Shown: positions 4,565 through 24,812 of the stretch, piece by piece
Position numbering within the stretch: position 1 is the first letter of the stretch
How the letters are laid out: every line of letters begins with the position of its first letter
IMG/VR virus record: IMGVR_UViG_3300025896_001403
Coordinates: 1 to 28,098 of that record
Length of the DNA: 28,098 bases
DNA from: a virus
Reading direction: 5' to 3' (one strand)
Translations under genes and position numbers: made by a program
The notes under the pieces: generated by a model
Told to the model about the DNA's origin: nothing
Seen by the model: the letters and a program-made list of their open reading frames with translations, nothing else
Databases searched by the model: none

Positions 4565-6848
4565 AAAAGTTAATTTTGTATTTGATTGGATTGGCCCAAA
4601 ACATCCAATACCTAATAATATGCCGCCAAGCGTAATTGATTTGGCAAATGCGTCTGGTGTGTTTAGTGTCAATAAAGATGTCAATGAACTAAAAGGTGAG
4701 TTACAAAATTCTAACTGCTATACAATGCTCAAAGGCCAACATCTAGTCAATACACACTCGGCATCTCATTTGCCCAATGGCGTGTTTGTATATGAGTATA
4801 ATCATTATTGGTGGGAAAGTGTAGACGACTTATTTGGAACATTTAAGCTAAATGGCATACTTGGACAAGGATCTCAGCCGCCGGCGGTATTTGATCGTAT
4901 TCGTAATAAAACTGCATATCTATTAATTTCTATTCCAATGGAGTCTCTATTAGAAGATCGACACTTATCTAAAATCGACACATATTTTAGAAATTCTAAC
5001 CTACCAATGTCGCAGATTATATACTTAACATGTAGTCCAAATGGACAAGCATTGTATGATAGTTATTGTGAACGTACAGGCTTAGAAAATCAAGGTCTCC
5101 ATATTGAATATCTGCCCTTTTACTATTTTGTATACAAAACTACCATTGCGAATAAAACATTAGAGTATAAAGTTGGCCCAAAATCTAAATCATTCCTAAT
5201 GTTCAATCGTCGGTGGGGAAGTCAATCGCAGAGATCATTGATGCTATGTTATCTTTATAAAAATGATCTATTAGACAATGGCTATATTAGTTTTAGCAAG
5301 ACTGAAATTGACAATGGCGGAACGTTTACATCTCATGTTAAAAATTTCATCGAAAGACTTACAATTGAGAATACAATTACCGACGACGATCTGATTCAGA
5401 TTGAATCTAAGCTACCTCTTACATTAGATAGTACAGATCTAACATTAAATCTGATGTATGACGAATTCGAATCTACCAGGCATTTTTACGAAGACAGTTT
5501 AGTTCACTTGATCTCCGAAACAAACTTCTTTACAAAAATAGTACATCTAACTGAGAAAAGTTATAAGCCAATTATGTACAAGCAACCATTTATTATGATG
5601 GGTGCATGCGGTAGTCTTGACGCTCTTAGAGAACAGGGATTTAGAACATTTAGCACATTGTGGGATGAGAGTTACGACGATGAAGCTTCAGATACTACAC
5701 GATTTTTTATGGTGTTGGATCTGATTAAAAAAATATGTGCAATGTCCGCAGACGAGAAACTTGAAATTAGTAAAGCATGTAAAGAGATAGTTGACTACAA
5801 CTATGATTTATTAAAGAATACTCAGACTAATCTGCTGGTTGAAAAATTTATAAACAAATACGGAGTACAAGATAGTATGAAAAAGGTATTGGTATGCGGA
5901 GCCGGTGGCTTCATTGGAAGTCACTTGGTCACTGACTTAAAAAATAAAGGATTTTATGTAATTGGTGCAGATTTAAAGCTGCCCGAATATACGACATCAA
6001 CTGCCGACGAGTTTCATCTAGTAGACTTGCGAGATCCAGTTGATGTTGCCAAATTGATTACAACTGACATATATGAAATTTATCAATTGGCAGCAGACAT
6101 GGGCGGAGCCGGATATATCTTTACAGGTGAGCACGATGCTGACATTGTACATAATAGTGCAATGATCAATTTAAACGTAGTACATGAGATGACTAAAAAG
6201 GGCGTTAAACGTGTATTCTATAGTTCAAGCGCATGTATGTATCCTAGTCACAATCAACTTGATGCTGAAAATCCATTGTTAAGTGAAGATAGTGCGTACC
6301 CTGCAAACCCCGACAGCGAATACGGCTGGGAAAAACTATTCAGTGAACGTTTATATATGAGTTTTGCTCGTAACTATAAGATTCGAGCTCGTATTGCACG
6401 TTTTCATAATATTTTTGGCCCGTTTGGTGCTTGGAATAACGGTAAAGAAAAAGCGCCAGCTGCGTTGTGCCGTAAAGTTGCAATGTGCGAAGAAGGTGGA
6501 ATCGTCGAAATATGGGGGCCAGGCAATCAGACACGTAGTTTCTTATACATTGATGAGTGCATAGAAGGTATCCATCGCATTATGGCAAGTGACTGTGAGG
6601 TTCCTCTAAATCTTGGTAGCGAACGAATGATTAGCATTAATAACTTGGCATTTTTAATTGCAAAACTTACCAAGAAAGACATTACTATTACAAACATTAG
6701 TGGACCAGTGGGAGTAATGGGTCGAACTAGTCACAATAAACTTATTCAAGATTCAATTGAGTGGAAGCCTGGCGAAGATCTGGAATACGGACTAACACAA
6801 ACATACAATTGGATCAATCAACAAGTAAAAGAAAATGAGCAATCTTAA
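4554..6848 (+). CDS. Fusion: glycosyltransferase-like domain plus GDP-mannose 3,5-epimerase-like domain
   Basis: A 764-residue two-part protein. Residues 1-441 match the gene at 1792 by eye (FLMFNRRWGSQ, then LISETNFF, LTEKSYKPIM, LREQGFRTF). Residues 442-764 are an extended short-chain dehydrogenase: GAGGFIG at 449-455 for NAD, the LAADMGGAGYI segment, SSSACMYPS, the catalytic pair Tyr590/Lys594 (EYGWEKL), then RFHNIFGPFG, EKAPAALCRK and TRSFLYIDECIEG. That set is typical of GDP-mannose 3,5-epimerase, which makes GDP-L-galactose and related sugars. No stop separates the halves, but Met442 is preceded by GGAG at 5862-5865, 11 bases upstream, so a free epimerase could also be made. ATG 4554 is preferred over the TTG codons upstream. 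The 3' end overlaps the next gene by 14 bases. Confidence 0.85.
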   Translation: MYNKKVNFVFDWIGPKHPIPNNMPPSVIDLANASGVFSVNKDVNELKGELQNSNCYTMLKGQHLVNTHSASHLPNGVFVYEYNHYWWESVDDLFGTFKLNGILGQGSQPPAVFDRIRNKTAYLLISIPMESLLEDRHLSKIDTYFRNSNLPMSQIIYLTCSPNGQALYDSYCERTGLENQGLHIEYLPFYYFVYKTTIANKTLEYKVGPKSKSFLMFNRRWGSQSQRSLMLCYLYKNDLLDNGYISFSKTEIDNGGTFTSHVKNFIERLTIENTITDDDLIQIESKLPLTLDSTDLTLNLMYDEFESTRHFYEDSLVHLISETNFFTKIVHLTEKSYKPIMYKQPFIMMGACGSLDALREQGFRTFSTLWDESYDDEASDTTRFFMVLDLIKKICAMSADEKLEISKACKEIVDYNYDLLKNTQTNLLVEKFINKYGVQDSMKKVLVCGAGGFIGSHLVTDLKNKGFYVIGADLKLPEYTTSTADEFHLVDLRDPVDVAKLITTDIYEIYQLAADMGGAGYIFTGEHDADIVHNSAMINLNVVHEMTKKGVKRVFYSSSACMYPSHNQLDAENPLLSEDSAYPANPDSEYGWEKLFSERLYMSFARNYKIRARIARFHNIFGPFGAWNNGKEKAPAALCRKVAMCEEGGIVEIWGPGNQTRSFLYIDECIEGIHRIMASDCEVPLNLGSERMISINNLAFLIAKLTKKDITITNISGPVGVMGRTSHNKLIQDSIEWKPGEDLEYGLTQTYNWINQQVKENEQS

Positions 6849-7473
6849 TTTAACATGGTTAGCTGATAACCTAAAACCCAATGCGCTAGTATTTGATATT
6901 GGTGCAGCCGACTTAAACGATACTAGACGAATTAAAGCAGCGTTATCCTTGGCTACGTTCTATGCGTTTGAGTGTGCTGCTACCTGGGAAACACAAAACA
7001 AACAAACAGCAGTAGACCATGATATAAACTATTTTCATATAGCTATGTCAGACACTGTTGGCACATTGACATTTTATCCCAGTGCAGTATTAGACGGGCA
7101 AGAATGGCCATGGTCTGGCAGCGTATGCGAACCTGGATCTAACTTAATAAACAACCGCTGGAAGTGGGGAGAAGGATATACCGTACCTAGTACTACACTA
7201 GAATCTTTTTGCATTGAACATAATCTAAGTCCAGACTTTATTCATATTGATGTACAAGGTGCAGAGTACAAGGTGTTCAGTGCTATAGGAAGTTTACGTC
7301 CGGGTATAGTCTGGGCAGAAATTAGCGAGTTCCACATGTACAAGACTGGCACAACATATGATGACTTTAAAACTTTAATGAATACTCTTGGCTATCAGGA
7401 AAAATTTAAAGACGATTGCGATGCACTTTATGTGCTAGGCAGTATCAACGTTACGGAATACAAATGCGATTAA
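6835..7473 (+). CDS. FkbM-family methyltransferase
   Basis: A 212-residue protein with the layout of FkbM-type SAM-dependent methyltransferases: NALVFDIGAADLNDTRR near residues 16-32 as the SAM-binding loop, a YAFECA segment (strand 2 with its acidic residue), a STTLESFC segment, and FIHIDVQGAEYKVFSAIG near 135-152, the hallmark of the family. These enzymes usually O-methylate sugars or small molecules, and neighbouring sugar-nucleotide genes fit methylation of a glycan. The start overlaps the previous gene by 14 bases and the end overlaps the next by 10, so all three are probably translated from one message. Confidence 0.85.
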   Translation: MSNLNLTWLADNLKPNALVFDIGAADLNDTRRIKAALSLATFYAFECAATWETQNKQTAVDHDINYFHIAMSDTVGTLTFYPSAVLDGQEWPWSGSVCEPGSNLINNRWKWGEGYTVPSTTLESFCIEHNLSPDFIHIDVQGAEYKVFSAIGSLRPGIVWAEISEFHMYKTGTTYDDFKTLMNTLGYQEKFKDDCDALYVLGSINVTEYKCD

Positions 7474-8702
7474 AAGTAGCAATGATTGGATTGGGCAAAT
7501 TAGGTTTGCCATGTGCCGAAGTAATGGCCGAGCATTATAGCGTAAGCGGATATGATATCAGCATTGTAGACCCAACAATGACTGTAGCAGTTAAAAGTTC
7601 AATTGCTGAAGCAGTAGCAGGATGCAATTTGATCTTTATAGCAGTACCTACACCACACGATGCAGCATACGGTGGCAGCTCACCTATTGCTGATTTACCA
7701 GTTAAGGATTTTGACTACAGTATTGTACAGACAGTACTGGCTGAGATCAACCTGCATGTAAACAAGGAACAACTTGTCGTTTTAATAAGTACGGTCTTAC
7801 CTGGAACTGTACGCAATAAGTTGCAACCTTTGATCACAAACGCTCGTTTCATTTATAACCCGTACCTTATTGCTATGGGCAGTGTCAAGTGGGATATGGT
7901 AAATCCTGAGTGCTTGATCATTGGTACAGAAGATGGTACACGCACAGGTGATGCACAAGTGCTGATTGACTTCTATGCGCCAATGATGAAGAACACCCCG
8001 CAAATCAATGTGGGCACATGGGATGAAGCCGAAGCCATTAAAGTTTTCTACAACACATTCATCAGTGCTAAAATTGGCTTGGTAAACATGATTCAGGACG
8101 TAGCCGAATCCAATGGCAACATCAATGTAGATGTAGTCACTGATGCGCTCAAAGCAGCGACACAGCGTATTACTGGCCCACGTTATCTCACAGCAGGTAT
8201 GGGCGATGCAGGTGCTTGCCATCCACGCGATAATATTGCACTACGCTGGTTAGCAGAAGAACTTGATTTAGGTTACGATCTATTTCATTCGTTTATGCAC
8301 AGCCGTGACATGCAAGCTAAAAAGATGGCAATGCGATTAGTTGCATTGAGCAAAGAACACAATATGCCAATAGTAATTCATGGACGTGCATATAAGCCAT
8401 ATGTTGAATACACCATTGGTAGTTACAGCGAATTAGTTGGATACTTTATAACCGAAGCTGGATTAAAGTTTAACTATGTAGATCCGTTAACTGGAGATAA
8501 TGTACAGCCAGGAGTAGCAAGTGTATTCTTAATGGCACATAATGCGGCTGTTACCTATGCAGGCACAGGTGTCACTGTAAGTAGTGTTGAGCAGTACTGT
8601 ATATTTCCAAAAGGATCAATACTGGTAGACCCATGGAGATCGCTTCCTGAGCGAGAGGGTTATACAGTTATTCACTATGGTAACCCAAGGAAAAACAAAT
8701 GA
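7464..8702 (+). CDS. UDP-glucose/GDP-mannose dehydrogenase family protein
   Basis: A 412-residue NAD-dependent nucleotide-sugar 6-dehydrogenase relative. The N-terminus carries the Rossmann motif GLGKLG (residues 9-14), followed by IFIAVPTP and STVLPGT, as in UDP-glucose dehydrogenase. The middle domain has EAIKVFYNTFISAKIGLVNM, and GACHPRDNIAL places the catalytic thiol at Cys252, equivalent to the GSCFPKD motif. These enzymes oxidise the sugar C6 to a carboxylate in two steps, giving a nucleotide-linked uronic acid. The C-terminal domain looks shorter and more divergent than in the cellular enzymes, so the exact substrate is open. ATG 7464 lies just before the Rossmann strand. Its stop overlaps the next ATG (ATGA at 8699). 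Confidence 0.85.
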   Translation: MRLKVAMIGLGKLGLPCAEVMAEHYSVSGYDISIVDPTMTVAVKSSIAEAVAGCNLIFIAVPTPHDAAYGGSSPIADLPVKDFDYSIVQTVLAEINLHVNKEQLVVLISTVLPGTVRNKLQPLITNARFIYNPYLIAMGSVKWDMVNPECLIIGTEDGTRTGDAQVLIDFYAPMMKNTPQINVGTWDEAEAIKVFYNTFISAKIGLVNMIQDVAESNGNINVDVVTDALKAATQRITGPRYLTAGMGDAGACHPRDNIALRWLAEELDLGYDLFHSFMHSRDMQAKKMAMRLVALSKEHNMPIVIHGRAYKPYVEYTIGSYSELVGYFITEAGLKFNYVDPLTGDNVQPGVASVFLMAHNAAVTYAGTGVTVSSVEQYCIFPKGSILVDPWRSLPEREGYTVIHYGNPRKNK

Positions 8703-9457
8703 AAATTGTACTATGTACTGGCGGATATGATCCAATTCATTCGGGGCATATTGCGTATTTTGAAGCTGCTAAAAAATTAGGAGACAAGTTAGTAGTTGGA
8801 ATAAATTCTGATTCATGGCTAGAGCGTAAGAAAGGCAGATCGTTTATGTCAATGGAAGAACGTACTGCTATCATACAGTCATTACGAATAGTTGATCATG
8901 CAATTCTATTCAATGATAATGATGACTCTGCAATTGAAGCCATTAAGAATGTGCAACTGCTATATCCCAATGACGAGATCATCTTTGCCAATGGGGGAGA
9001 TCGTAATGCAAATAACATACCTGAGATGTCTGTTAATAACGTTGAGTTTAGATTTGGTGTAGGTGGCGAACATAAAAAAAACTCTAGTAGTTGGATACTA
9101 GAAGAGTGGAAAGCACCCAAGACTCAACGCCAATGGGGCTACTATCGCGTACTACATGATGTTCCTGGTTGCAAAGTTAAGGAGCTTACAATTGAACCAG
9201 ATCAGAGTCTGAGTATGCAACGACACTTTAAACGGCATGAACTATGGCACATTACTGAAGGGCAGTGCGAAGTAGATCAACAAATGAATAGTGGCTATGC
9301 ATTACCTATGTTAACACTAACCCAGCATTCACAGGTAGCAATTCCGCTTGGCGACTGGCATAGAATTCGCAATCCGTTTGACAGACCATGTCGCATCATT
9401 GAGATCCAGTACGGAGATCAATGTGTAGAAGAAGATATAGAGAGACAGCCCTACTAA
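8699..9457 (+). CDS. Fusion: RfaE/TagD-like nucleotidyltransferase plus C-terminal cupin
   Basis: A 252-residue two-domain protein. Residues 1-145 are a cytidylyl/adenylyltransferase fold: [14 protein letters not shown] with the HxGH motif at 14-17, [13 protein letters not shown], and FANGGDR, closest in feel to the heptose-phosphate adenylyltransferase half of HldE. Residues 150-252 are a cupin resembling the C-terminal part of mannose-6-phosphate isomerase type II ([14 protein letters not shown], then GDWHRIRNP). The likely role is activation of a sugar phosphate to an NDP-sugar, with the cupin either isomerising or binding the sugar; that division of labour is inferred. It is coupled to the dehydrogenase upstream through ATGA and is the last gene of the sugar block. 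Confidence 0.8.
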
Positions 9458-9484
9458 AGTACGAACTACTTGTGTGTATTGCAT

Positions 9485-9492
9485 CTTAAATA
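9485..9492 (+). promoter_or_regulatory. Possible T4-type late promoter
   Basis: CTTAAATA at 9485-9492 resembles the T4-family late element TATAAATA. It lies 20 bases before the ATG at 9513, with the ribosome site AGGAG (9498-9502) in between. A single short match is weak evidence. Confidence 0.3.
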
Positions 9493-9512
9493 TTGTTAGG
9501 AGAATAAACATT

Positions 9513-9878
9513 ATGAGCGGTAATCTATTAAGAAAATATATCGATATTATCAACGAAGGCCTTGACCCTGTTGGGAAAGAGGATAGCGATATCAACAATG
9601 ATGGCAAGGTCAACAAGACCGATGATTACTTAAAACATCGACGTAATGTTATTGGCAAAGAAGTAACCAAAGACGTAGGCGAGGCGTGGGATACTGAGAC
9701 AAAGGTTAGCCCAAGCGAGCGAGGCAAGTACGAAGGCAAGACCAAAGCCGAACTGGTTAAAGCATATAATAACTTGAAAGCTACTGGACCACACCCACGA
9801 GGTTCAAAGGAATTTGGCCGTATGAAAGAGCTAGCGTTTGCTATCAGGGCCAAAAGCAATTGGGGCTCAGTCACATAA
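9513..9878 (+). CDS. Small EF-hand-containing protein
   Basis: A 121-residue protein that begins [15 protein letters not shown], an N-terminus of the type found in virion or structural-module proteins of T4-type marine phages. Near residues 25-36 [12 protein letters not shown] has the spacing of an EF-hand or dockerin-like calcium loop (Asp, Asn, Asp at positions 1, 3, 5 and Asp at 12). The C-terminal half is basic and helical, with a [16 protein letters not shown] segment. No enzyme motif is seen. The start is fixed by AGGAG at 9498-9502, ten bases before the ATG. It has its own possible late promoter and is followed by a strong early-type promoter, so it seems to be a stand-alone late gene. 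Confidence 0.75.
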
Positions 9879-9883
9879 AGCTC

Positions 9884-9912
9884 TTGACAATTCATTGAAT
9901 TTATAGTATAAT
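9884..9912 (+). promoter_or_regulatory. Consensus sigma-70 promoter for the dsbA and small-gene array
   Basis: TTGACA (9884-9889) and TATAAT (9907-9912) are separated by exactly 17 bases, a perfect match to the bacterial housekeeping promoter. Transcription would begin near 9919, leaving a leader of about 27 bases with CGGAGA before the dsbA ATG. It probably drives early transcription of the whole run to about 14 kb, since no terminator is visible inside it. Confidence 0.85.
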
Positions 9913-9945
9913 TACTCTGTAAGACACTAACTAACGGAGATTTAT

Positions 9946-10197
9946 ATGAGTTTTAATCCAGAGCAAATTGCTAAACTGAAGCGTATCATTCAAGAGGGCA
10001 TTCAAATTAAACGTGAGGTTGACGATCTCACAGTTGGTCTAAAAGAAACTGTTGCAGCCATTGCAGAAGAAATGGACATCAAGCCAGCAGTGCTGAACAG
10101 AGTAATCACTAAAGCATTCAAAGGAGATTTTGATAAGGATCAATCAGACTTTGATGCAATGGAAGAAATCTTAGAAGTCACAGGCAACAAGTTCTAA
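9946..10197 (+). CDS. dsbA: DsbA-like double-stranded DNA-binding protein
   Basis: An 83-residue helical protein. The pattern KETVAAIAEEMDIKPAVLNR, followed by a VITKAFKGDF stretch and an acidic ending EEILEVTGNKF, resembles the T4 DsbA family, a small double-stranded DNA-binding protein (89 residues in T4) reported to bind near late promoters and aid late transcription. The assignment rests on size, helix pattern and location, not on a catalytic motif. The start is clear: GGAG at 9936-9939 lies six bases before ATG 9946. It is the first gene behind the consensus promoter at 9884 and its TAA overlaps the next ATG (TAATG). Confidence 0.65.
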   Translation: MSFNPEQIAKLKRIIQEGIQIKREVDDLTVGLKETVAAIAEEMDIKPAVLNRVITKAFKGDFDKDQSDFDAMEEILEVTGNKF

Positions 10198-10487
10198 TGA
10201 AACAATTACTCGCTAGTGTAAGAAATTACATTCGTGAGGATTGGGAAGAGAATCCAGCACGATGTGTGCTGGAAGTTCTGGCTTGGTTTCTGAGCATTGG
10301 CTGTGCATTGACCATGGCACTAACTGTTCCTAATCCACCGTTTCTAATTTTATATCCATTGTTTATTACGCAATGCGTAATTTTTGCATGGGCAAGCAAG
10401 ACGCGCGGTAGCATTGGCATGCTTGCCAACTACGTTTTGCTAGTCACAATCGATTCGATTGCATTGGTTAAAATGTGGATGCAATGA
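10197..10487 (+). CDS. Small membrane protein of unknown function
   Basis: A 96-residue protein with a charged N-terminus (about residues 1-22) and three probable membrane segments: VLEVLAWFLSIGCALTMAL near 23-41, PPFLILYPLFITQCVIFAW near 46-64, and MLANYVLLVTIDSIALV near 74-91. The central TVPNPP loop and the NYVLL-TIDSI segment look conserved in character. No signal peptide is cleaved and no transporter motif is recognisable. Its start overlaps the dsbA stop, so it should be made early. A role in the host inner membrane, for example superinfection exclusion or transport, is possible but unproven. Confidence 0.75.
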   Translation: MKQLLASVRNYIREDWEENPARCVLEVLAWFLSIGCALTMALTVPNPPFLILYPLFITQCVIFAWASKTRGSIGMLANYVLLVTIDSIALVKMWMQ

Positions 10488-10488
10488 T

Positions 10489-10779
10489 ATGGATCAACGA
10501 ATTATAGTACATCACTGGCGATACGATGATGGATGGCACGATATTCCTTACGTCCTGTTAAAGGATAAAAATCACCCAGGTCGTGAATTCCGTGAGGAAG
10601 TTGTTGGTTGGCATTGTTGGGTATACTGCAACAATCATAATGAGTTTGTTGATTGGATGAAAGAGCATTGTCCTGATGCCGACTGCACAATTCGTTTCAA
10701 TTCCGGTGATCCAATGATCACTGTAAATATCACCGACAAAGATGAGGCAGCATACTTTATGTTGAACTTTAATGTTTAG
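10489..10779 (+). CDS. Small array protein 1, divergent member of the FKLxW family
   Basis: A 96-residue protein, the first of the small-gene array. It shows the shared layout: a helix with FVDWMKEHCPDADCTIRF near residues 56-73, a strand, then an ending DKDEAAYFMLNFNV that matches the family tail (acidic residue, Ala, two residues, F-x-L-x-[WF]). The N-terminal 50 residues are rich in Trp, His and Tyr and are unique to this copy. Function is unknown. ATG 10489 is one base after the previous stop and was chosen over the upstream extension, which would overlap the membrane-protein gene. Confidence 0.7.
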   Translation: MDQRIIVHHWRYDDGWHDIPYVLLKDKNHPGREFREEVVGWHCWVYCNNHNEFVDWMKEHCPDADCTIRFNSGDPMITVNITDKDEAAYFMLNFNV

Positions 10780-11032
10780 AATATACTTAGGCGATCCCAA
10801 CGAAGAAGAAGTTCTAAGCTGGCTAATGGAAAATGTTAGCCCGCTAGGAATGACTACCAAAGCAGAGTTCAATTACTATAATACATATTACGGTGATGAT
10901 GACCTGTGGGTCATGAACACCAGTGACGTAAGCGATGTTAGCGGCCAATGGGACGAAATCGCCGAACTAGTATTTCGTACAAAAGAAGACGCTATGCTTT
11001 GCAGTCTTCGATTTGGTGGACGAATAGTATGA
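10772..11032 (+). CDS. Small array protein 2, FKLxW family
   Basis: An 86-residue acidic protein. A helix containing EEVLSWLMENV (residues 12-22) matches the h-x-x-W-h-x-E helix seen in its neighbours, and the ending KEDAMLCSLRFGGRIV is a degenerate form of the family tail with Phe in place of the last Trp. Tyr-rich and Asp-rich linkers lie between. The ATG overlaps the preceding gene by eight bases and the stop overlaps the next start (ATGA). No known function. Confidence 0.7.
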   Translation: MFRIYLGDPNEEEVLSWLMENVSPLGMTTKAEFNYYNTYYGDDDLWVMNTSDVSDVSGQWDEIAELVFRTKEDAMLCSLRFGGRIV

Positions 11033-11250
11033 AGTATCCAACATGTACATATGAGCACAGTAAGCACTATGGTCACATTGTCCGAATGCACATGTTGGAT
11101 CGCATTGAGCAGGACCTAAGTATCGACACAGCAATTGAGTGGCTCTCTACACAAATAGGATCAAAGCGTCTTGCTTATAATATGTGGCAATTTCGGTCGC
11201 AGAATGATGCAGATGAATGTATAATGCTTTATAACTTAACATTATCCTAA
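11029..11250 (+). CDS. Small array protein 3, divergent FKLxW family member
   Basis: A 73-residue protein. It carries AIEWLSTQIGSKR near residues 38-50, which fits the shared helix, then a NMWQFRSQNDADECIMLYNL segment at the position of the family tail, one of the most diverged copies. The start is set by the ATGA overlap with the previous gene; the longer open frame upstream would run antiparallel to nothing but overlap a real gene by 80 bases. Function unknown. Confidence 0.65.
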   Translation: MKYPTCTYEHSKHYGHIVRMHMLDRIEQDLSIDTAIEWLSTQIGSKRLAYNMWQFRSQNDADECIMLYNLTLS

Positions 11251-11251
11251 T

Positions 11252-11674
11252 ATGAATGATCCTGATTTCACTACAATTGATCTTGAAACAATGCTGGGCG
11301 AGAGCCTAGCGCCTTGGCAAAAGCAAACACTCAACAATGTTTATGGCGGGATTAAAAGTGGGGAAATGATGACATTCTCCTCTGGACGCCAACTTGGCAA
11401 GTCTACATTTACTGCCGATATGCTTAGAAAAGTAATAGATGATATGTCATTCGCTGCCCCAAGTTTTGAAGTGGTTGATACTGCACCAGTTGATGGGTCG
11501 CCTTGGTACACTATTGCATGCAACAATCAAATAGCCAAATGGGTCAGAGCACAGGATAATGAACAATGGTACGAACACGGGATGAGCAGATCAAACTTTC
11601 ATAACCCACGTGCTAATTTTGATGTGCATGTAGAATTGTTCACTATGTTAAAGCTGACATGGGGTGATGTATGA
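11252..11674 (+). CDS. Walker-A segment joined to a small-array domain
   Basis: A 140-residue chimera. Residues 20-65 read like the start of a phage terminase-type ATPase: LAPWQKQTLNNVYGGIKSGE followed by TFSSGRQLGKST, a Walker A P-loop whose RQLGK[ST] core is the one used by T4 gp17. No Walker B or nuclease domain follows, so it cannot be a complete terminase. From about residue 95 the protein instead shows the array pattern: IAKWVRAQDNEQWYEHGM and an ending FTMLKLTWGDV. It may bind ATP or may be a decoy or regulator; both ideas are inference. It starts one base after the previous stop and ends in an ATGA overlap. Confidence 0.75.
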   Translation: MNDPDFTTIDLETMLGESLAPWQKQTLNNVYGGIKSGEMMTFSSGRQLGKSTFTADMLRKVIDDMSFAAPSFEVVDTAPVDGSPWYTIACNNQIAKWVRAQDNEQWYEHGMSRSNFHNPRANFDVHVELFTMLKLTWGDV

Positions 11675-11880
11675 GAGTACTAAAAAAAGAGTTGTGGCCT
11701 TATAAAATAAAGATTGGCCAAGATGAATCTAATGTAAAGATTACTGAAATCGAACAATGGTTGGGTGAAACATTGGGTGCATTTAAAAGCCAATGGAATG
11801 TAGTTTACCAATTCAATTCTACGGATTTTTATTTTCGAACACGAGATGATGCAGTGTTGTTTAAACTATCTCATCTGTAA
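11671..11880 (+). CDS. Small array protein 5, FKLxW family
   Basis: A 69-residue protein with the shared order intact: a basic N-terminus, the helix TEIEQWLGETLGAF near residues 25-38, an aromatic strand SQWNVVYQFNSTDFYF, and the tail RDDAVLFKLSHL, which keeps F-K-L but lost the final Trp. Function unknown. Starts inside the previous stop (ATGA) and ends in TAATG with the next gene, so translation is probably coupled both ways. Confidence 0.75.
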   Translation: MRVLKKELWPYKIKIGQDESNVKITEIEQWLGETLGAFKSQWNVVYQFNSTDFYFRTRDDAVLFKLSHL

Positions 11881-12131
11881 TGGAATACTTCTACAGTAGC
11901 GGAGGCAACAACCGCCCCTACTTTAGCTATCGTATTCGAGTGCCTAAATGTACTACAGAAATGTACGAATGGTGCGATGCGTTTGATGCTGAAGGTGCAT
12001 ACTTTCGTCGCTTTCATGTAGAATGGCACAAGCCGCCACATGGACAGGAACCAAATTATGACGTTGTGCAATTTGAATGGCGGGAAGCTGCCAATATGTT
12101 TTTGCTAACTTGGGGCGGTGAAGTAATATGA
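11880..12131 (+). CDS. Small array protein 6, FKLxW family
   Basis: An 83-residue protein very rich in Tyr, Phe and Trp. TEMYEWCDAFDAEGAYFRRF near residues 26-45 is the helix-strand part of the family, and REAANMFLLTWGGEVI is the tail, with F-L-L-T-W instead of F-K-L-x-W plus a short extension. Function unknown. The ATG shares its A with the upstream TAA, and the end overlaps the next ATG by four bases. Confidence 0.75.
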   Translation: MEYFYSSGGNNRPYFSYRIRVPKCTTEMYEWCDAFDAEGAYFRRFHVEWHKPPHGQEPNYDVVQFEWREAANMFLLTWGGEVI

Positions 12132-12397
12132 ATAAAACAGCTACCCAAGTGCTTGAAGAGCAGTTTGCACGTGCTGCAAAAGAAATAGCCGATGAAATTG
12201 ATGCTAAAGTCTTGTTTGACCTAATGATCCAACACGGATGGACGCGAGTAGAGTTAAGCAGAGTGCCACGAACTATTGCAAGCGATATAAACATATGGAT
12301 GCATAACGAGTGTAACAAGCATTGGAAGCAACAGGGTAGAGTATGGATCTTTGAAAGTCAGGAAGAAGCAGCCCTGTTTAAATTGACCTGGTCATGA
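12128..12397 (+). CDS. Small array protein 7, FKLxW family
   Basis: An 89-residue protein and one of the clearest copies. An N-terminal amphipathic helix (residues 5-35, rich in Ala and Glu) precedes the common domain, where INIWMHNECNKHWKQQGRVW near 54-73 leads to FESQEEAALFKLTWS at the end. The closing acidic-acidic-Ala-Ala-x-F-K-L-x-W-S pattern is the type form of the signature. Function unknown. It is coupled at both ends by ATGA overlaps. Confidence 0.8.
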   Translation: MNKTATQVLEEQFARAAKEIADEIDAKVLFDLMIQHGWTRVELSRVPRTIASDINIWMHNECNKHWKQQGRVWIFESQEEAALFKLTWS

Positions 12398-12582
12398 GTA
12401 CAATAGTTACATTGCCGTACTCTCCGTTTTGGAAGCCACTGAGCTGGGCCAAAGAACATTGTCCCAGTTATATCACCAATGATCTGCATCAGGACGGTTA
12501 TAACACATATGATCATACTAAGATTGATTATTTTTTTGATGATCCTCATGATGCTGCATATTTTAAATTGCGATGGTCATAA
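12394..12582 (+). CDS. Small array protein 8, minimal FKLxW family member
   Basis: A 62-residue protein, the shortest complete copy, so it outlines the minimal domain: LSWAKEHCPSYI near residues 16-27, a Tyr-rich strand, and DDPHDAAYFKLRWS at the end. The short KEHCP segment is shared with array protein 1 (WMKEHCPD), direct evidence that the two are related. Function unknown. It begins in an ATGA overlap and its tail codons contain the possible start of the next gene. Confidence 0.8.
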   Translation: MSTIVTLPYSPFWKPLSWAKEHCPSYITNDLHQDGYNTYDHTKIDYFFDDPHDAAYFKLRWS

Positions 12583-13013
12583 ATGCAATGTTCAATATCA
12601 AGAATAGATACCTGTGTTGGCAAGAAGATCGGTTTTTAAGGAAGCACAAATGTCGCAATCGTAAAGAGTACGAGCGTAGATATGATCCAGACTATGTGCC
12701 ACATGCTACACAAATTGCCAACTACTACAATGGATACCAGCATGTACATTGTTTTGAAAATCGCGAAAACTTTGTGTACAACAGAATTTACGATTATGGT
12801 CCAGGTGGATACAGAGATGGGTTCCATGAAATATGTGACTGGTGCGAAGAGAACTTAAAAGGCAAATGGCGATACGACATACTACGTGCAATGAAAGCAC
12901 CGAGTACAGGTAATCGGTGGGAAGTAAATGAACTAGGTGGCGGAGACTATTGGTTCTTTGCGTTCCAAGACTCTGAAGATTATTTTATTTTTAAACTACA
13001 ATGGGGTAGCTAA
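12573..13013 (+). CDS. Small array protein 9, long FKLxW family member
   Basis: A 146-residue basic and aromatic protein, or 141 residues if the second ATG at 12588 is used; neither has a clear ribosome site, and 12588 would begin at MFNIKNRYL. The N-terminal 60 residues (FLRKHKCRNRKEYERRYDP and following) are unique in the array. The shared domain starts at HEICDWCEENLKGKWRYD near residue 86 and ends with a GGGDYWFFAF strand and SEDYFIFKLQWGS. Its overall pattern resembles conserved hypothetical proteins of T4-type marine phages. Function unknown. Its stop overlaps the next ATG as TAATG. Confidence 0.8.
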   Translation: MVINAMFNIKNRYLCWQEDRFLRKHKCRNRKEYERRYDPDYVPHATQIANYYNGYQHVHCFENRENFVYNRIYDYGPGGYRDGFHEICDWCEENLKGKWRYDILRAMKAPSTGNRWEVNELGGGDYWFFAFQDSEDYFIFKLQWGS

Positions 13014-13273
13014 TGACTGTGACATATACTAATCCCTGGCCCGACACACTGCCGCAGTTCAAAGTTCCTGTATTGCATAAGGTAATGTATGCCAAAACAG
13101 TTGATGAGGTGCAAGCATTTTATCAGCGTAGTTATAAGGATCACTTGGTAGATGCATGGTTGAAGGAAAATTGTAAGCATCCTTATTACCACAGCCCGGG
13201 ATATCTTAAAGAAAAGTCGATTCATTTTGAATGTGATGAAGAAGCAGTATTATTTGCGCTGTCGTGCGTATGA
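13013..13273 (+). CDS. Small array protein 10, FKLxW family
   Basis: An 86-residue protein. VDAWLKENCKHPYYHSPGY near residues 44-62 corresponds to the helix of array proteins 1 and 8 (W-x-K-E-x-C), and FECDEEAVLFALSCV is a decayed tail with Ala for Lys and no Trp. The N-terminal 40 residues are unique. Function unknown. It is joined to its neighbours by TAATG at the start and ATGA at the end. Confidence 0.75.
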   Translation: MTVTYTNPWPDTLPQFKVPVLHKVMYAKTVDEVQAFYQRSYKDHLVDAWLKENCKHPYYHSPGYLKEKSIHFECDEEAVLFALSCV

Positions 13274-13563
13274 AAATAGTTTGGGGTAGAAGTTTAGGAT
13301 GGAACATAGAGTTAAACAAGATGGTAACACTAACAAGATCTATTCCAAATGGAAAACAAATGGAATATACAATTATTGAAGATGGTGCAGGCTGTTATCC
13401 GTGGAGCAAAGTATATGCTTGGTGGCCGGTTAAAACAATATCAGGCGAGCGTATATGGTTAGAACGATTACTTAGACGTAGAGTCTGGGTAGTATGGGGG
13501 ACCGGATTCCACATGGAGCCAGAGACGCAGTATGCTACGGCATTTGACTTAATATCAATGTGA
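13270..13563 (+). CDS. Small array protein 11, uncertain relative of the FKLxW family
   Basis: A 97-residue basic protein rich in Trp. It ends with FHMEPETQYATAFDLISM, where A-T-A-F-D-L is at best a remote version of the family tail, and KVYAWWPVKT near residues 45-54 could be the degraded helix. Membership is therefore doubtful. No other motif is recognisable. ATG 13270 makes an ATGA overlap with the gene before it, better than the GTG six bases upstream. Confidence 0.65.
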   Translation: MKIVWGRSLGWNIELNKMVTLTRSIPNGKQMEYTIIEDGAGCYPWSKVYAWWPVKTISGERIWLERLLRRRVWVVWGTGFHMEPETQYATAFDLISM

Positions 13564-13572
13564 GCGTATAAT
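13544..13572 (+). promoter_or_regulatory. Strong sigma-70 promoter whose -10 box overlaps the next start codon
   Basis: TTGACT (13544-13549) and TATAAT (13567-13572) are spaced by 17 bases. The -10 box overlaps the ATG at 13571, so a transcript from here, beginning near 13579, would lack that start codon. It could still serve the GTG at 13592, which has AAGG at 13583-13586, the ATG at 13610, or the genes further down. Confidence 0.6.
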
Positions 13573-13795
13573 GAAGAAACGTAAGGCAGTAGTGCCAAAA
13601 ACAATTGCAATGTATAGGCTACCTCATAAGGCAAGTTTAATAGCGTATACTAAAAAAGAATTACTTGACATAGCAGAATGGTGTAAGAACACATTCGAAG
13701 CGGGCACGTGGGCTATAAGCGGCACTTATCCAGGATGGTTAAACTTTGAACATGGAACAGATATGATAACATTTAAATTGGTGTGGACAAAATGA
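13571..13795 (+). CDS. Small array protein 12, FKLxW family
   Basis: A 74-residue protein. LLDIAEWCKNTFEAGTWAIS near residues 33-52 matches array protein 9 (EICDWCEENLKGKW) in position and spacing, and HGTDMITFKLVWTK is a good tail. The N-terminus is strongly basic (MKKRK). Function unknown. The start at 13571 works on read-through messages from upstream, but the internal promoter at 13544 would give a shorter product. Its stop overlaps the next ATG. Confidence 0.75.
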   Translation: MKKRKAVVPKTIAMYRLPHKASLIAYTKKELLDIAEWCKNTFEAGTWAISGTYPGWLNFEHGTDMITFKLVWTK

Positions 13796-14016
13796 GCTTT
13801 GACGACTACTCATGGGAAAACGATAAAGACGAACCAATGATCGTCATTATTAAACGACAAGGGCAACCTCTAATGAGATTCTTCATTGGTGAGGCAATGG
13901 AAGGTGCTGGCCGAAAGAGGGTTATGACCCATGTAAGGGAATGTGATAATAGTTCATGGCTTAAAGAATGGCGTGAAGCTGCGGAAGAAGACATGCTTGA
14001 CAAACTTAAACAATAA
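13792..14016 (+). CDS. Small hypothetical protein at the end of the array
   Basis: A 74-residue highly charged protein without the FKLxW tail. The first 15 residues are acidic, followed by a strand MIVIIKRQGQPLMRFFIGEA and a C-terminal helix SSWLKEWREAAEEDMLDKL. No family recognised. Its ATG overlaps the previous stop (ATGA), so it belongs to the same operon. The -35 box of the next promoter lies inside its last codons. Confidence 0.65.
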   Translation: MSFDDYSWENDKDEPMIVIIKRQGQPLMRFFIGEAMEGAGRKRVMTHVRECDNSSWLKEWREAAEEDMLDKLKQ

Positions 14017-14025
14017 CACTATAAT
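13997..14025 (+). promoter_or_regulatory. Consensus sigma-70 promoter abutting the ATG at 14031
   Basis: TTGACA (13997-14002) and TATAAT (14020-14025) with a 17-base spacer, a second perfect match. The expected start of transcription, near 14032, falls on the ATG at 14031, which has no ribosome site, so the message would be leaderless or nearly so. It can also feed DNA polymerase downstream. Confidence 0.8.
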
Positions 14026-14030
14026 AGCAT

Positions 14031-14426
14031 ATGACTGATGAAATTAAAAAACAAGAAGTAATGGATGCATTACACGAATCTGGTAAAGAATTTGCCAAAG
14101 CTGCCGACGAGTATCAGCAAATGGCAAACTCATATTACTCAAGTCTTGAACCAGAAGAACAACTATGGGCATTTTGTTCTGTGGTTGAGAAACTATGTAA
14201 AGGCGAGTTGGATGAGCACCGAAGCTATCGTGGCGTCTTATATGATACCTTTGGGTGGGGGCCAGAAGCTTATGGCGCAGCTCTGCATTCTGGTTTCATG
14301 GGCCTGCATAACAGCATCTACCGATTCGAAGATTTGGAAACTGTGTTTAAGAATACACTCAAAGAACTTGATATAGAAGTTGATAACGAAAAAATGTCTG
14401 CTGCATTGGCAAAAAACTTCTACTAA
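14031..14426 (+). CDS. Conserved phage protein of unknown function upstream of DNA polymerase
   Basis: A 131-residue acidic, mostly helical protein. The central block EEQLWAFCSVVEKLCKGELD followed by RSYRGVLYDTFGWGPEAYGA and a GFMGLHNSIY segment is distinctive and looks conserved, but I know no function for it. The C-terminus is a charged helix ending AKNFY. ATG 14031 lacks a Shine-Dalgarno site and sits at the predicted transcription start; the in-frame ATG at 14061 is an alternative. It precedes the polymerase by 17 bases and may be a replication accessory. Confidence 0.7.
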   Translation: MTDEIKKQEVMDALHESGKEFAKAADEYQQMANSYYSSLEPEEQLWAFCSVVEKLCKGELDEHRSYRGVLYDTFGWGPEAYGAALHSGFMGLHNSIYRFEDLETVFKNTLKELDIEVDNEKMSAALAKNFY

Positions 14427-14443
14427 AGAGAAATATATAATAC

Positions 14444-17092
14444 ATGTTCATTGATGCTTATATTGACAAAAAGAGAGAGATCGTCCACGTTGTAGAACGT
14501 GTCGACGGCAAGAGGGTACTAAAAGAGTATCCTGCAAAGTATGTGTTATACTACCCAGACAAGAAGGGCAAGTATAAAAACATTGCTGGCGATGCTGTTA
14601 GCCGTGTTATACTTGGCAATGCAGTTGCATTTGATAAAGAAAAACGAATCCACTCTAACAAGAAATTGTGTGAAAGTGATTACCGTCCGTTGAATCGTTG
14701 TTTAGAAGAAAACTACGGCGGCCAAGACGCGCCCGATCTTCATGTAGCATTCTTCGACATTGAAGTGTCATACGACAAAGTCAAAGGCTTTGCTCCACCA
14801 AGTGATCCGTTTAATTACATTACTGCTATTACTACGCATTTGATGTGGACTGACCAAACCATTACACTTTGCTTAAAGCCAGATGCAATGTCTGTGGAAG
14901 TCGCACAAGAGATCTGTGCAAAGTTTGAGAACACCTTGTTGTGCTCTACTGAAAAGGAAATGCTTGACACTTGGCTTGATGTGATTGACGATGCTGATGT
15001 GTTGTCAGGGTGGAACAGCGAAGGCTTTGATATTCCATATACTACTAATCGTATTAGCCGTGTTATGAATAAAGATCAGACTCGTCGTATGTGTTTGTGG
15101 GACCAGTTTCCTAAACGTAGAGAGTTTGAAAAGTATGGTAAGGAGTTGGAAACATTTGACCCAATTGGTCGTGTTCACCTTGACTATCTTGAATTGTATC
15201 GTAAGTACAACTACCACGAGATGCACACATATCGACTCGACTTTATTGGCGAGTACGAACTTGGCGAGAACAAGATTGCGTACGAAGGTACGTTGGATCA
15301 GTTATACAACAACGACTTTGAAAAGTTTATTGCATATAACAGACAAGACGTTATCTTGCTGAAGAAGCTTGACAACAAGTTAAAGTTCATTGAGCTTACA
15401 AATCTTATCAGTCATGCAAACTGTGTAGGACTTCGTGCTACACTTGGTGCAGTGGCAGTGACTGACCAAGCAGTTATCAATGAAGCACATCGTTTGGGAA
15501 TGGTAGTTCCAGATCGTCCCCGTCGAAGCACTGATGCAAAAGATAATGCAGCCGCAGGCGCATACGTTGCAGTACCAAAAGCAGGTATGCACGAGTGGAT
15601 TGGGTCAATGGACATTAACTCGCTGTACCCATCGTTGATTCGTGCATTGAACATGAGTCCTGAGACTATCATTGGACAAGTACGTCAAACACGGACATTA
15701 GCTGGCATTGACGAAGTTATTGCAGATGGCAAGGGCATTGCTGACTTTTGGGATGGAAAGTTTGCTTGCTTTGAATACGAATCAGTCATGGCTCGGGACA
15801 TCGGGCAAACTGAAACAGTTGATTGGGCAGATGGTACCAGTACTGAGATGAGTGCTGCACAAGTATACGACTTTGTATTCCATGGTGGCGAGCCATTGAT
15901 GATCTCAGGTAATGGTACAATCTTTAGCTATGCCAGCAAAGGAGTTATCCCTGGTCTGCTTGAACGTTGGTATGCTGAACGTAAAGAATTACAAGCCAAA
16001 GCCAAAGAAGCGTACGGCACAGATATGTTTGACTTCTGGGACAAGCGACAGTTGGTCAAGAAGATTAACTTGAACAGTGCTTATGGTGCGTTACTTAATG
16101 CAGGTAGCAGGTTCTTCGACCAACGGCTTGGACAGAGTACTACACTATGCGGACGTCTTGTTGCACGTCACATGGCAGGTGCAGTAAATGATTGCTTGAC
16201 AGGTGAGAAGGATCACATGGGCCAGGCAATTATCTATGGTGACACTGACTCTGTTTACTTTAGTGCTGTACCAGTATTCAAAGAACAGATTGCATCAGGT
16301 GAAATGGATTGGAGTACTGATAAGATTATTGAGCTATATGATGCTATCTCAGAACAGGTCAATGATACATTCCCAGCATTCATGAACGTTGCGTTCAATG
16401 CACCAACCAGTCAAGGGGAGATTATCAAAGCAGGTCGAGAAGTAGTTGCATCCAAAGGTATCTTTATGACCAAGAAACGTTATGCTGTTCTTATCGTTGA
16501 TAAGGAAGGCAAGCGTAAAGATAAAGATGGTTCTAAGGGTGAAGTTAAAGCTATGGGCCTTGATATGAAGCGAGCAGATACTCCAGAGTTCATGCAAAAG
16601 TTCTTAGAAGAAGCACTTACTATGACACTGGAAGGCGTAAGCGAACGTGAGGTTATGACTCGTGTTCGTGGATTTAGGGAAGAATTTAAATCGCGGCCAG
16701 GTTGGGAAAAGGGCACACCTAAGCGTGTAAACAACCTAACTAAACATACTGATGTTTATAAAAAGACAGGTAAGTGTGGTGTAGGTCATGCAATGGCTGC
16801 TATTAACTGGAACAGGTTTAAAGAAGCATTTGGTGACCGACGTAGTATGGATATCACTGACGGGCAGAAAGCAATTGTTTGTAAGCTGCGGTCCAACAAC
16901 TACAACATTACATCTATCGCTTATCCAATTGACGAGATGAATCTCCCAGATTGGTTTAAGCAACTACCGTTTGATCACGTTGCAATGGAAGAGACTATTA
17001 TTGACTCTAAGATTGACAACTTGCTCGGAGTACTGCATTGGGATTTGAATGCATCAAAGGAGCAGGGTCATATCACTGATATATTTTCCTAA
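14444..17092 (+). CDS. 43: Family B replicative DNA polymerase, T4 gp43 type
   Basis: An 882-residue polymerase (T4 gp43 is 898) that copies the phage genome. The 3'-5' exonuclease is intact: FFDIE with Asp105 and Glu107, NSEGFDIPY with Asp196, YNRQDVILL with Asp302. The polymerase motifs are also complete: SMDINSLYPS with Asp390 (motif A), KKINLNSAYG near 538-547 (motif B), and IYGDTDSVYF with Asp600 and Asp602 (motif C). The C-terminal tail GHITDIFS could be the short clamp-binding peptide found at the end of T4-type polymerases. No intein or frameshift is seen. ATG 14444 is preceded by a TATAAT-like string but no matching -35. The probable clamp gene follows after its own promoter. Confidence 0.97.
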   Translation: MFIDAYIDKKREIVHVVERVDGKRVLKEYPAKYVLYYPDKKGKYKNIAGDAVSRVILGNAVAFDKEKRIHSNKKLCESDYRPLNRCLEENYGGQDAPDLHVAFFDIEVSYDKVKGFAPPSDPFNYITAITTHLMWTDQTITLCLKPDAMSVEVAQEICAKFENTLLCSTEKEMLDTWLDVIDDADVLSGWNSEGFDIPYTTNRISRVMNKDQTRRMCLWDQFPKRREFEKYGKELETFDPIGRVHLDYLELYRKYNYHEMHTYRLDFIGEYELGENKIAYEGTLDQLYNNDFEKFIAYNRQDVILLKKLDNKLKFIELTNLISHANCVGLRATLGAVAVTDQAVINEAHRLGMVVPDRPRRSTDAKDNAAAGAYVAVPKAGMHEWIGSMDINSLYPSLIRALNMSPETIIGQVRQTRTLAGIDEVIADGKGIADFWDGKFACFEYESVMARDIGQTETVDWADGTSTEMSAAQVYDFVFHGGEPLMISGNGTIFSYASKGVIPGLLERWYAERKELQAKAKEAYGTDMFDFWDKRQLVKKINLNSAYGALLNAGSRFFDQRLGQSTTLCGRLVARHMAGAVNDCLTGEKDHMGQAIIYGDTDSVYFSAVPVFKEQIASGEMDWSTDKIIELYDAISEQVNDTFPAFMNVAFNAPTSQGEIIKAGREVVASKGIFMTKKRYAVLIVDKEGKRKDKDGSKGEVKAMGLDMKRADTPEFMQKFLEEALTMTLEGVSEREVMTRVRGFREEFKSRPGWEKGTPKRVNNLTKHTDVYKKTGKCGVGHAMAAINWNRFKEAFGDRRSMDITDGQKAIVCKLRSNNYNITSIAYPIDEMNLPDWFKQLPFDHVAMEETIIDSKIDNLLGVLHWDLNASKEQGHITDIFS

Positions 17093-17109
17093 AACGGAGA
17101 ACAACATCA

Positions 17110-17138
17110 TTGACTTACACTACAATTTAAACTATAAT
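17110..17138 (+). promoter_or_regulatory. Sigma-70 promoter for the clamp and DpdA-like genes
   Basis: TTGACT (17110-17115) and TATAAT (17133-17138) with a 17-base spacer, one mismatch from consensus. Transcription would begin near 17145, and TGGAG at 17151-17155 gives a ribosome site before ATG 17165. Confidence 0.8.
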
Positions 17139-17164
17139 TGAACATATAACTGGAGAAACTAACA

Positions 17165-17884
17165 ATGCTAAAAGACATTACACTAGACATCGCAAAAAAC
17201 ATCGCAGGCTTGGGCCTGTTTGATGAGATCCTTGTTGAACAAGAAGACGACTCAACTAAATTTACTGCATACCCCGAAGACAACTTGCTAACTGTACTTG
17301 CAAACAGCAAAGACAAAGTTAGCGAGTTGCCAGATAAATGCGGTTTACTTAATCTTGGCTTTTACGTTGGTTTAACTAACTTGTACAAGTCTGAAGATAG
17401 TAAGGCTGCAACTGGTACTAACAGTAAGAGCGAAATTGATCGCTTGGTCTTTACTGGCAAGGACAATAACAACGATGAGTTCCGTTTGACTCCAACTAAC
17501 TTAATGAAAACTAAGAGTCGTAGCTTTAAAGGCACAACTTGGGAAGTTGAAGTAAAGCCTGCTGCTAATAAAATTAGCGAGTTGGTCCAGCGTGGTACAT
17601 TGTATGCCAGCATTGATCCAAACTTTGTTGCTACAACTGATAACGGCAAGTTGATCTTTACATTTGGTGGAGCTCAAGGTGGTGGACACAGTGGTAAGTT
17701 TATTTTTGCTGAAACTAACCAAACATTGAAGCGTCCAGTGACGTTGTCGATCCAAGCTGTGCTAACTGCATTCAAGCAGTGCAGCCAAGGAACTCCAGAG
17801 TTAAAGCTAAGTGAGAAAGCCACAAGCGTATCATTTGACAGCGGCTTGATCAAGTACGAATACATTACTCCTTCACAAAACTAA
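17165..17884 (+). CDS. Probable sliding clamp, T4 gp45-like
   Basis: A 239-residue soluble protein, close to T4 gp45 (228). Its pattern of short alternating strands and helices, the block LLNLGFYVGLTNLYKSED near residues 60-77, which fits the gp45 segment containing LNGFLGILSLV, a basic middle, and an ending GLIKYEYITPSQN are consistent with a DNA polymerase processivity ring. There is no enzymatic motif to confirm it. The location directly behind DNA polymerase, with its own strong promoter and a good GGAG site, supports the call. It is spaced three bases from the next gene. Confidence 0.6.
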   Translation: MLKDITLDIAKNIAGLGLFDEILVEQEDDSTKFTAYPEDNLLTVLANSKDKVSELPDKCGLLNLGFYVGLTNLYKSEDSKAATGTNSKSEIDRLVFTGKDNNNDEFRLTPTNLMKTKSRSFKGTTWEVEVKPAANKISELVQRGTLYASIDPNFVATTDNGKLIFTFGGAQGGGHSGKFIFAETNQTLKRPVTLSIQAVLTAFKQCSQGTPELKLSEKATSVSFDSGLIKYEYITPSQN

Positions 17885-17887
17885 TCT

Positions 17888-19459: not shown

Positions 19460-19967
19460 TCGTATTGCACAAGACTTCTTTATAGGAGTAGAAGTTGAAA
19501 ACTCTCCTGCTAAAGGGTTGCTTACATTGTTTGTAGTTGGACTACAACCAGTTGATAAGATTTTAAATATTGCTATCCGTAATAATATTAAACATATCTA
19601 CCTTGGTGCTAATATGAGTCTACATGGCATTGCCAATGATGATCATTACTCCTGGCGTGCATGGGATGCTATGGTAGCTGGATTGCTTGATGATGATTAC
19701 TTATCATACATCACAGTAGATGCAACTGCGGATCAAGTTGAAGGATTTCTTGATAGTACTATGAGTGAAAATAATCGTATCATTCCAATGATTTCGGTGA
19801 AACTACCCTATACTAAGTTGCTTAACTACAATACAACGATTAAGATTGATGACAAAGGTTTCAATCAAACTAATCCTGGTGTATGGTGCCACTCTTTACA
19901 TAAACTTATGGATCGAGAAGTATTTACACCGTGGAGTGCCTATGTAGGCGATAACCCTGTAAACTAA
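19449..19967 (+). CDS. Conserved phage protein coupled to the DpdA-like gene
   Basis: A 172-residue soluble alpha/beta protein without a motif I can name. Recognisable blocks are FIGVEVENSPAKGLLTLFVV near residues 10-29, KHIYLGANMSLHG, and an unusually conserved-looking C-terminal part, IPMISVKLPYTKLLNYNTTI and TNPGVWCHSLHKLMD. Of several clustered ATGs (19440, 19443, 19449) I chose 19449, which begins MTIDRIAQD; none has a strong ribosome site. The 11-base overlap with the transglycosylase-like gene suggests a shared pathway, possibly base recognition or regulation of the modification; this is inference. Confidence 0.75.
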   Translation: MTIDRIAQDFFIGVEVENSPAKGLLTLFVVGLQPVDKILNIAIRNNIKHIYLGANMSLHGIANDDHYSWRAWDAMVAGLLDDDYLSYITVDATADQVEGFLDSTMSENNRIIPMISVKLPYTKLLNYNTTIKIDDKGFNQTNPGVWCHSLHKLMDREVFTPWSAYVGDNPVN

Positions 19968-19976
19968 GGAAATAAA

Positions 19977-20183
19977 ATGAGTGAAGAAGAAGTTAAAGTT
20001 GGTAATTTTACTAAGCCAGTAAGACGTCCGGTTCCAATTGCAAAAACAGTAGCAGTAGAAGAAGCAGTATCCGAAGATGGTATTGCTGAACTTAATGTAA
20101 AGATGGATACACTACTAAAGTTCATGCAAGCAATTGACTGGAAGATGTGGGTTTACTTAAAAGCTAATAACTACATTGATTGA
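19977..20183 (+). CDS. Small hypothetical protein, paralogue of the next gene
   Basis: A 68-residue protein with a charged, Pro-rich N-terminus and a C-terminal helix VKMDTLLKFMQAIDWKMWVY ending LKANNYID. The same ending is seen in the following gene (IDFKLWAYAKKDGLIK), so the pair arose by duplication. No known function. The start is supported by AAGGA at 19966-19970, six bases before the ATG. Confidence 0.7.
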   Translation: MSEEEVKVGNFTKPVRRPVPIAKTVAVEEAVSEDGIAELNVKMDTLLKFMQAIDWKMWVYLKANNYID

Positions 20184-24567: not shown

Positions 24568-24812
24568 CCACTATTGTAATTTACAGCAAAGATCCGTGCC
24601 CTTATTGTGAGCACGCAAAAGCATGGCTCAACAGCAAGCAATTGACGTACACCGAACACCGTGTTGGGGTTGATGGATTTACACGCGAAGATCTAATAGC
24701 AGCAGTACCAACTGCCAGAACTGTACCGCAGATCATCATTGATGGTAATTTGATTGGTGGCTGGGATGACTTGCGAGCAAGTGCATTCTATGCTGCAACC
24801 AATCTCAAATAA
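24564..24812 (+). CDS. Glutaredoxin
   Basis: An 82-residue thioredoxin-fold protein that matches glutaredoxin: YSKDPCPYCEHAKAWL with the redox pair Cys12 and Cys15 (C-P-Y-C), TVPQIIIDG with the cis-Pro loop near 53-61, and the glutathione-site GGWDDL near 66-71. Phages carry glutaredoxins to supply electrons to ribonucleotide reductase, and no reductase is in this window. It lies in a redox-rich stretch with the CDGSH-like gene. Its 3' end overlaps the next gene by 23 bases. Confidence 0.92.
   Translation: MTTIVIYSKDPCPYCEHAKAWLNSKQLTYTEHRVGVDGFTREDLIAAVPTARTVPQIIIDGNLIGGWDDLRASAFYAATNLK

Follow-up and report, generated by a model that had tools for sequence, protein, structure and literature searches.

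Multigene families are known from large DNA viruses of eukaryotes, African swine fever virus among them; the host takeover genes of Bacillus phage SPO1 are small and early, and in phage T4 RegA lies near gp43, the DNA polymerase. In the phage literature searched, the closest case to the one reported here is Bacillus phage G, with approximately 35 zinc ribbons, an expansion called unprecedented (PMC7824862); the SPO1 host takeover module comprises 26 genes (PMC6873191). Here we describe an array of tiny genes at positions 10489-13795 of the IMG/VR virus record IMGVR_UViG_3300025896_001403, which was analysed in its entirety (28,098 bases; hereafter the window). Eleven of the array genes are members of a single undescribed protein family. 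The array of related genes proposed in an initial annotation of this DNA is thus real, and the family is larger than claimed and spread across jumbo phages.

Eleven array genes belong to one protein family

Just downstream of the array lies a T4-type family B DNA polymerase gene (T4 gp43-like; 14444-17092, + strand), which anchors the locus in relatives. The named relatives closest by this polymerase are jumbo phages, namely Sinorhizobium phage Phosso (469 kb, 47% identity) and Agrobacterium phage Atu_ph07 (490 kb). Because the array genes showed weak similarity when compared as single sequences, a profile approach was adopted: 77 related loci were fetched via the polymerase, and a profile seeded with nine C-termini from the array was iterated over the open reading frames (ORFs) of these loci. 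The resulting family profile gave 268 matches at E<1e-3, every one of them on the + (coding) strand; reversed decoys gave no match. Genes were counted as members if a C-terminal match (profile E<1e-3, or profile-profile) lay close to the stop codon. On this basis ten array genes were assigned by the profile (stops at 10779, 11032, 11674, 11880, 12131, 12397, 12582, 13013, 13273 and 13795). The gene ending at 11250 was missed by the family profile and assigned by hhalign, the profile of its own divergent group, conserved in approximately 30 loci, aligning to the family at 94% probability. The eleven stop coordinates named in the initial annotation were all exact, and the profile search from C-termini that it had suggested does connect the copies. 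Two corrections concern the extent of the family: no family domain was detectable by profile or profile-profile comparison in 13270-13563, which lies inside the interval, nor in 13792-14016 and other neighbour genes, and the eleventh profile match in the window sits outside the array, at 24754-25077.

Chance likeness of short tails was ruled out by reversed, shuffled and strand controls and by cross-training (see below). The TumE toxin, 'sunset' and similar weak matches, involving 1-3 members only at E>0.001, were taken as noise.

The genes of the array, its borders and the outlying copy are the following (aa, amino acids; AF2, AlphaFold2; pLDDT, predicted local distance difference test).

9946-10197, +: upstream flank gene, 83 aa, kept in relatives, not family (profile comparison)
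10197-10487, +: left slot border, conserved protein of 96 aa, hydrophobic in stretches and by eye a membrane protein, not family (profile comparison, slot survey)
10489-10779, +: family gene 1, group A, 96 aa (E 1.7e-13; AF2 pLDDT 94.1, core strands and helices at aa 40-94)
10772-11032, +: family gene 2, group B (E 1.6e-5)
11029-11250, +: family gene 3, divergent group, approximately four additional residues in the last helix (hhalign)
11252-11674, +: family gene 4, group F, N-terminal Walker A head (SGRQLGKS) and C-terminal family domain (E 6.3e-10)
11671-11880, +: family gene 5, group N (E 5.7e-10)
11880-12131, +: family gene 6, group M (E 2.2e-11)
12128-12397, +: family gene 7, group D (E 3.4e-16)
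12394-12582, +: family gene 8, group J, minimal form, 62 aa (E 3.5e-16; AF2 pLDDT 84.7, beta-alpha-beta-beta-alpha)
12573-13013, +: family gene 9, group K, 146 aa, long head (E 5.9e-16)
13013-13273, +: family gene 10, group G (E 1.2e-7)
13270-13563, +: interloper gene, 97 aa, kept in relatives, no detectable family domain (profile comparison)
13571-13795, +: family gene 11, group W, this window only (E 8.1e-7)
13792-14016, +: right slot border, conserved 74-aa protein, not family (profile comparison, slot survey)
24754-25077, +: group E family copy beyond the array, immediately preceding the GTP cyclohydrolase I gene (E 1e-4; group in 20 loci)

The Walker A motif of family gene 4 is present in nine of the 19 group-F members; as the group mixes members with and without this head, heads do change. 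The head of gene 4 looks as though a piece of an ATPase, captured or decayed, had been joined to the family domain. A functional ATPase is unlikely, since the Walker A head stands alone and is missing in about half of the group. The Walker A segment (11252-11450) weakly resembles phage primase/helicase, and similar weak matches were seen in ORFs of 490-510 aa in two relatives and Phosso.

Conserved motif and predicted fold

Information in the profile is concentrated in W5, F42, L53 and W55. One Trp in helix 1, one Phe in strand 3 and a closing E-D-A-x-x-F-K-L-x-W in helix 2 are conserved, and in most members the domain ends 0-4 aa from the C-terminus. This motif makes up the C-terminal half of the single small domain that each gene encodes. 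Tryptophan accounts for 5.0% of residues in the family versus 1.8% in the window's large proteins. The family alignment shows no conserved group of polar residues such as a catalytic site would have.

Structures were modelled with AlphaFold2 for two genes, gene 1 (group A) and gene 8 (group J), and share a common beta-alpha-beta-beta-alpha core. The comparison of predicted structures proposed in the initial annotation thus yielded one core fold, not the unrelated folds that would have spoken against a common domain; together with the profile it bears out the claim of a conserved core with differing heads. The first core strand falls in the part taken there for variable, so that the C-terminal domain it had delimited is most of one small domain. 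In its model, the head of gene 1 contributes four additional short strands. The predicted fold class is ferredoxin/RRM-like (RRM, RNA recognition motif) without the fourth strand: the full topology of that class, beta-alpha-beta-beta-alpha-beta, is incomplete in both models, where no strand follows helix 2, and the head strands of gene 1 might replace the missing one. When RRM, ACT and KH families among others were compared, matches to solved structures reached Z 6.2 at best with many unrelated families tied, and a Foldseek E of 0.07 at best, a likeness at the level of a common arrangement only. No matching family was found in Pfam, PHROG, NCBIfam or PADLOC, and no solved PDB chain by sequence. 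The best predicted viral match to gene 8, in BFVD, was A0A6J7WHX3, an uncharacterised protein of uncultured Caudovirales (60% identity, TM 0.93).

Given such a fold class, the proteins could be RNA-binding post-transcriptional regulators in the manner of T4 RegA, each copy controlling through its RRM-like domain how particular messages of phage or host are translated. The array adjoins a gp43-like gene, where T4 has RegA. Many RRMs appear among the VIA rows (Z 5-6), the pattern of strand 3 and helix 2 is RRM-like by eye, and RegA is described as having an RRM fold (PMC7824862). Against this stand the fourth strand absent from both models, the common-fold level of the PDB matches, the absence of any RRM model among the Pfam matches of family proteins, and the mostly acidic nature of the proteins (median isoelectric point 5.7 in the window and 6.0 in the 561-kb genome described below). 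We consider RNA regulation unlikely.

Evolution of the array in close relatives

The array has a constant place in freshwater relatives, a slot that precedes the DNA polymerase gene. The slot was surveyed in relatives in which both borders were placeable and copies were found, some loci not being placeable; the left border was the conserved hydrophobic protein and the right border the conserved 74-aa protein or the next gene. Slot size ranged from 0.85 to 8.8 kb, with 2-17 copies, and a few more distant relatives had a single family match. Members sort into 34 groups whose order is partly conserved, most arrays starting A-B. Heads, which the initial annotation had described as different in every copy, indeed differ among paralogues but are conserved among orthologues.

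The best match of each of the 268 members was in another genome, never its own. The paralogues are therefore old, with variation arising by gain and loss, and neither gene conversion nor a tandem duplication of recent date explains the copies in the window. Rough Nei-Gojobori estimates of the ratio of nonsynonymous to synonymous substitution rates (dN/dS) gave medians of 0.10-0.35 for orthologue groups with enough pairs, which are thus under purifying selection; the polymerase gave 0.06 and three flanking genes 0.11-0.14. The earlier expression 'diversified set' thus fits in so far as the paralogues are old, have diverged strongly and turn over widely in copy number, but not in the sense of rapid variation, given purifying selection and the lack of recent in-genome duplicates.

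Spread of the family in jumbo phages

A DNA pattern, the family motif followed by a stop codon, was scanned for in IMG/VR and in 257 Gb of bacterial and archaeal genomes. It occurred in 86 stretches of IMG/VR viral contigs versus one in the cellular genomes, and 83 of the 84 pattern loci examined contained profile-confirmed members. The single cellular match, in a Chitinophagaceae metagenome-assembled genome, was attributed to chance because no family member was found by profile in that bacterial genome. These scans show a family restricted to viruses. Many pattern matches fell in very large IMG/VR contigs (266-608 kb), each of which has 8-60 copies at E<=1e-3, and a recognisable relative of the window's polymerase, typically at approximately 50% identity, was present in 14 of 22 records tested.

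Single-sequence tblastn had given Phosso as a weak match (E=5) and the sole named-family lead; the profile made the match solid, with 46 members at E<=0.01, and a broader profile gave 41 at E<=1e-3. They form small arrays spread over the genome. At Phosso 3853-20086, a dozen or more members, all annotated as hypothetical, lie between tRNA-Pro and tRNA-Cys genes, and a histidyl-tRNA synthetase-like gene is also near this run. Atu_ph07 gave a few weak family matches. Its members gp232, gp255 and gp258 sit among nucleotide-metabolism genes, outside the three clusters holding most virion proteins found by mass spectrometry (PMC6102473), which weakly favours a non-structural role. Neither profile search found a member in 12 reference phages (T4, RaK2, GAP32, phiKZ, G, P-SSM2, HTVC008M, phiM12, CcrColossus, Munch, S-SCSM1 and one Vibrio jumbo phage).

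The expansion was greatest in a contig of 561,116 bases. A freshwater-only profile gave 124 members at E<1e-3, and iteration within this genome gave 270 ORFs, 267 of them non-overlapping, with no matches in reversed ORFs, shuffled-DNA ORFs or shuffled proteins. By a simple, approximate ORF count the family makes up about 28% of some 958 genes, and 15% of bases. Its members form 50 clusters, the largest with 78 members on both strands at 362-389 kb. A profile trained on this genome alone recovered 220 known freshwater members and 12 more (members by eye); this cross-training, the null controls and the 124 freshwater-only matches rule out profile drift. An assembly repeat or recent amplification is likewise ruled out, as the maximum identity between any two copies is 49%.

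Duplicates that simply persist in roomy jumbo genomes, with little function and largely without adaptive value, would fit the extreme copy numbers and the scattering seen in a few genomes. Such accumulation is most improbable, as dN/dS is well under 1 in every group with enough data and young duplicates are absent.

Promoters and translational coupling

A perfect match to the sigma-70 consensus (TTGACA-17-TATAAT; consensus match only) precedes the gene run at 9884-9912 (+). The initial annotation had counted one perfect promoter; a second perfect sigma-70-like site lies at 13997-14025, ending five bases before the ATG of a 131-aa gene at 14031, and a third at 13544 scores 11 of 12. A transcript from the second site would be almost leaderless. 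Sequences resembling a -10 element also occur immediately before 13571 and 14444.

Adjacent array genes overlap by 1-4 bases at most junctions, in agreement with the coupling noted initially, or by 8-10 bases, or are separated by gaps of 1-7 bases. In the 561-kb genome, a 3' ATGA was present in 95 of 162 genes followed by another copy versus 20 of 105 others (p approximately 1e-10), so coupling is a property of the arrays. Coupled translation would suit subunits of a complex, and the paralogues might bind each other in one or several hetero-oligomers, an open edge strand pairing neighbours. The absent fourth strand would, in the models, free such an edge strand. Two long members of the 561-kb contig (368467-368994 and 381231-381728) resemble tandem family domains, albeit weakly (independent E-value of the second domain 0.04-0.13), suggesting pseudo-dimers. 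The range of 2-17 copies among close relatives is awkward for a fixed assembly and the copies in Phosso are scattered, and we regard mutual assembly as quite unlikely.

Other genes in the window

By Pfam, the window contains a run of sugar/cell-surface genes (4545-9457), with a NAD-dependent epimerase, an FkbM-type methyltransferase, a UDP-glucose dehydrogenase-like protein and a cytidylyltransferase fused to a mannose-6-phosphate isomerase C-terminal domain. A glycoside hydrolase family 19 (chitinase class I) protein at 1045-1698 is likely an endolysin.

Discussion

We tentatively read the array, with slightly less than even confidence, as a local cluster of a very large jumbo-phage multigene family whose small proteins bind many partners, probably of the host. 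The conserved residues are mostly core-forming and hydrophobic and include no polar catalytic set, which points to the shared part as a scaffold and to head and surface as what sets the partner. Each copy would then be a binding protein on this scaffold, with its partner chosen by the variable head and surface. Made from translationally coupled operons, the copies may bind and modulate many different host proteins in takeover and counter-defence, and the repertoire would shift as genes are gained and lost rather than through fast mutation. On a comparably tentative footing, up to approximately a quarter of the genes in a jumbo-phage clade may encode one tiny scaffold domain that serves as a general platform for evolving partner-specific binders. 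The interpretation in the initial annotation, of early, diversified host-interaction or anti-defence proteins or subunits of one assembly, is partly supported.

Several observations weigh against host-directed binding. An arms race would usually leave a signal of fast change, but the groups show purifying selection without one. Searches of Pfam, PHROG and NCBIfam matched no anti-CRISPR or other known counter-defence family, no dedicated counter-defence library having been searched and PADLOC covering defence proteins. The pointer to early expression in the window is the consensus promoter at 9884-9912 only, and in the 561-kb genome just one of 25 strong sigma-70-like sites lies immediately upstream of a family gene. 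Strain-specific conflict between phages is another reading: during co-infection, the proteins would shut out or inhibit rival phages. Big repertoires that vary by presence and absence would suit it. Known exclusion genes showed no link to the family, and we judge such conflict highly unlikely.

Jumbo phage genomes are mostly unannotated: Atu_ph07 alone is reported to have 390 ORFans among 714 ORFs (PMC6102473). One profile now unites tens to hundreds of such genes per genome, and why some phages grow so large becomes a testable question, that of a reservoir of small binding proteins. If the binding-protein reading is true, the 'hypothetical proteins' of these genomes are in good part one system. 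Phosso is cultured on Sinorhizobium meliloti and has approximately 41 copies, so function is directly testable.

The multigene families of African swine fever virus resemble the present one in their tandem, diverged paralogues and copy-number variation, but involve unrelated proteins and hosts. T4 RegA, an RRM-fold translational repressor (PMC7824862), is likewise a small phage protein of a related fold class; it is single-copy, and is likened here by fold class and position, not by sequence. The SPO1 module is also one cluster of many genes linked to host remodelling; its abstract mentions no single common domain, and functions there are partly tested (PMC6873191). The BFVD proteins of uncultured Caudovirales (e.g. 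A0A6J7WHX3) belong to the same family as gene 8 and are not described as a family within the literature searched. No account of such a family was found in that literature, subscription papers and most preprints being outside its coverage, and the family is unnamed in the libraries searched. Closest are the zinc ribbons of phage G, where a single small domain has likewise expanded within one jumbo-phage lineage. They are a different domain, at approximately 35 copies versus 41-267, so that the present copy number reaches several times theirs, and the present family is absent from phage G itself. Viral multigene families and jumbo-phage expansions are thus known already; new, within the sources searched, are this protein family and its scale in phages.

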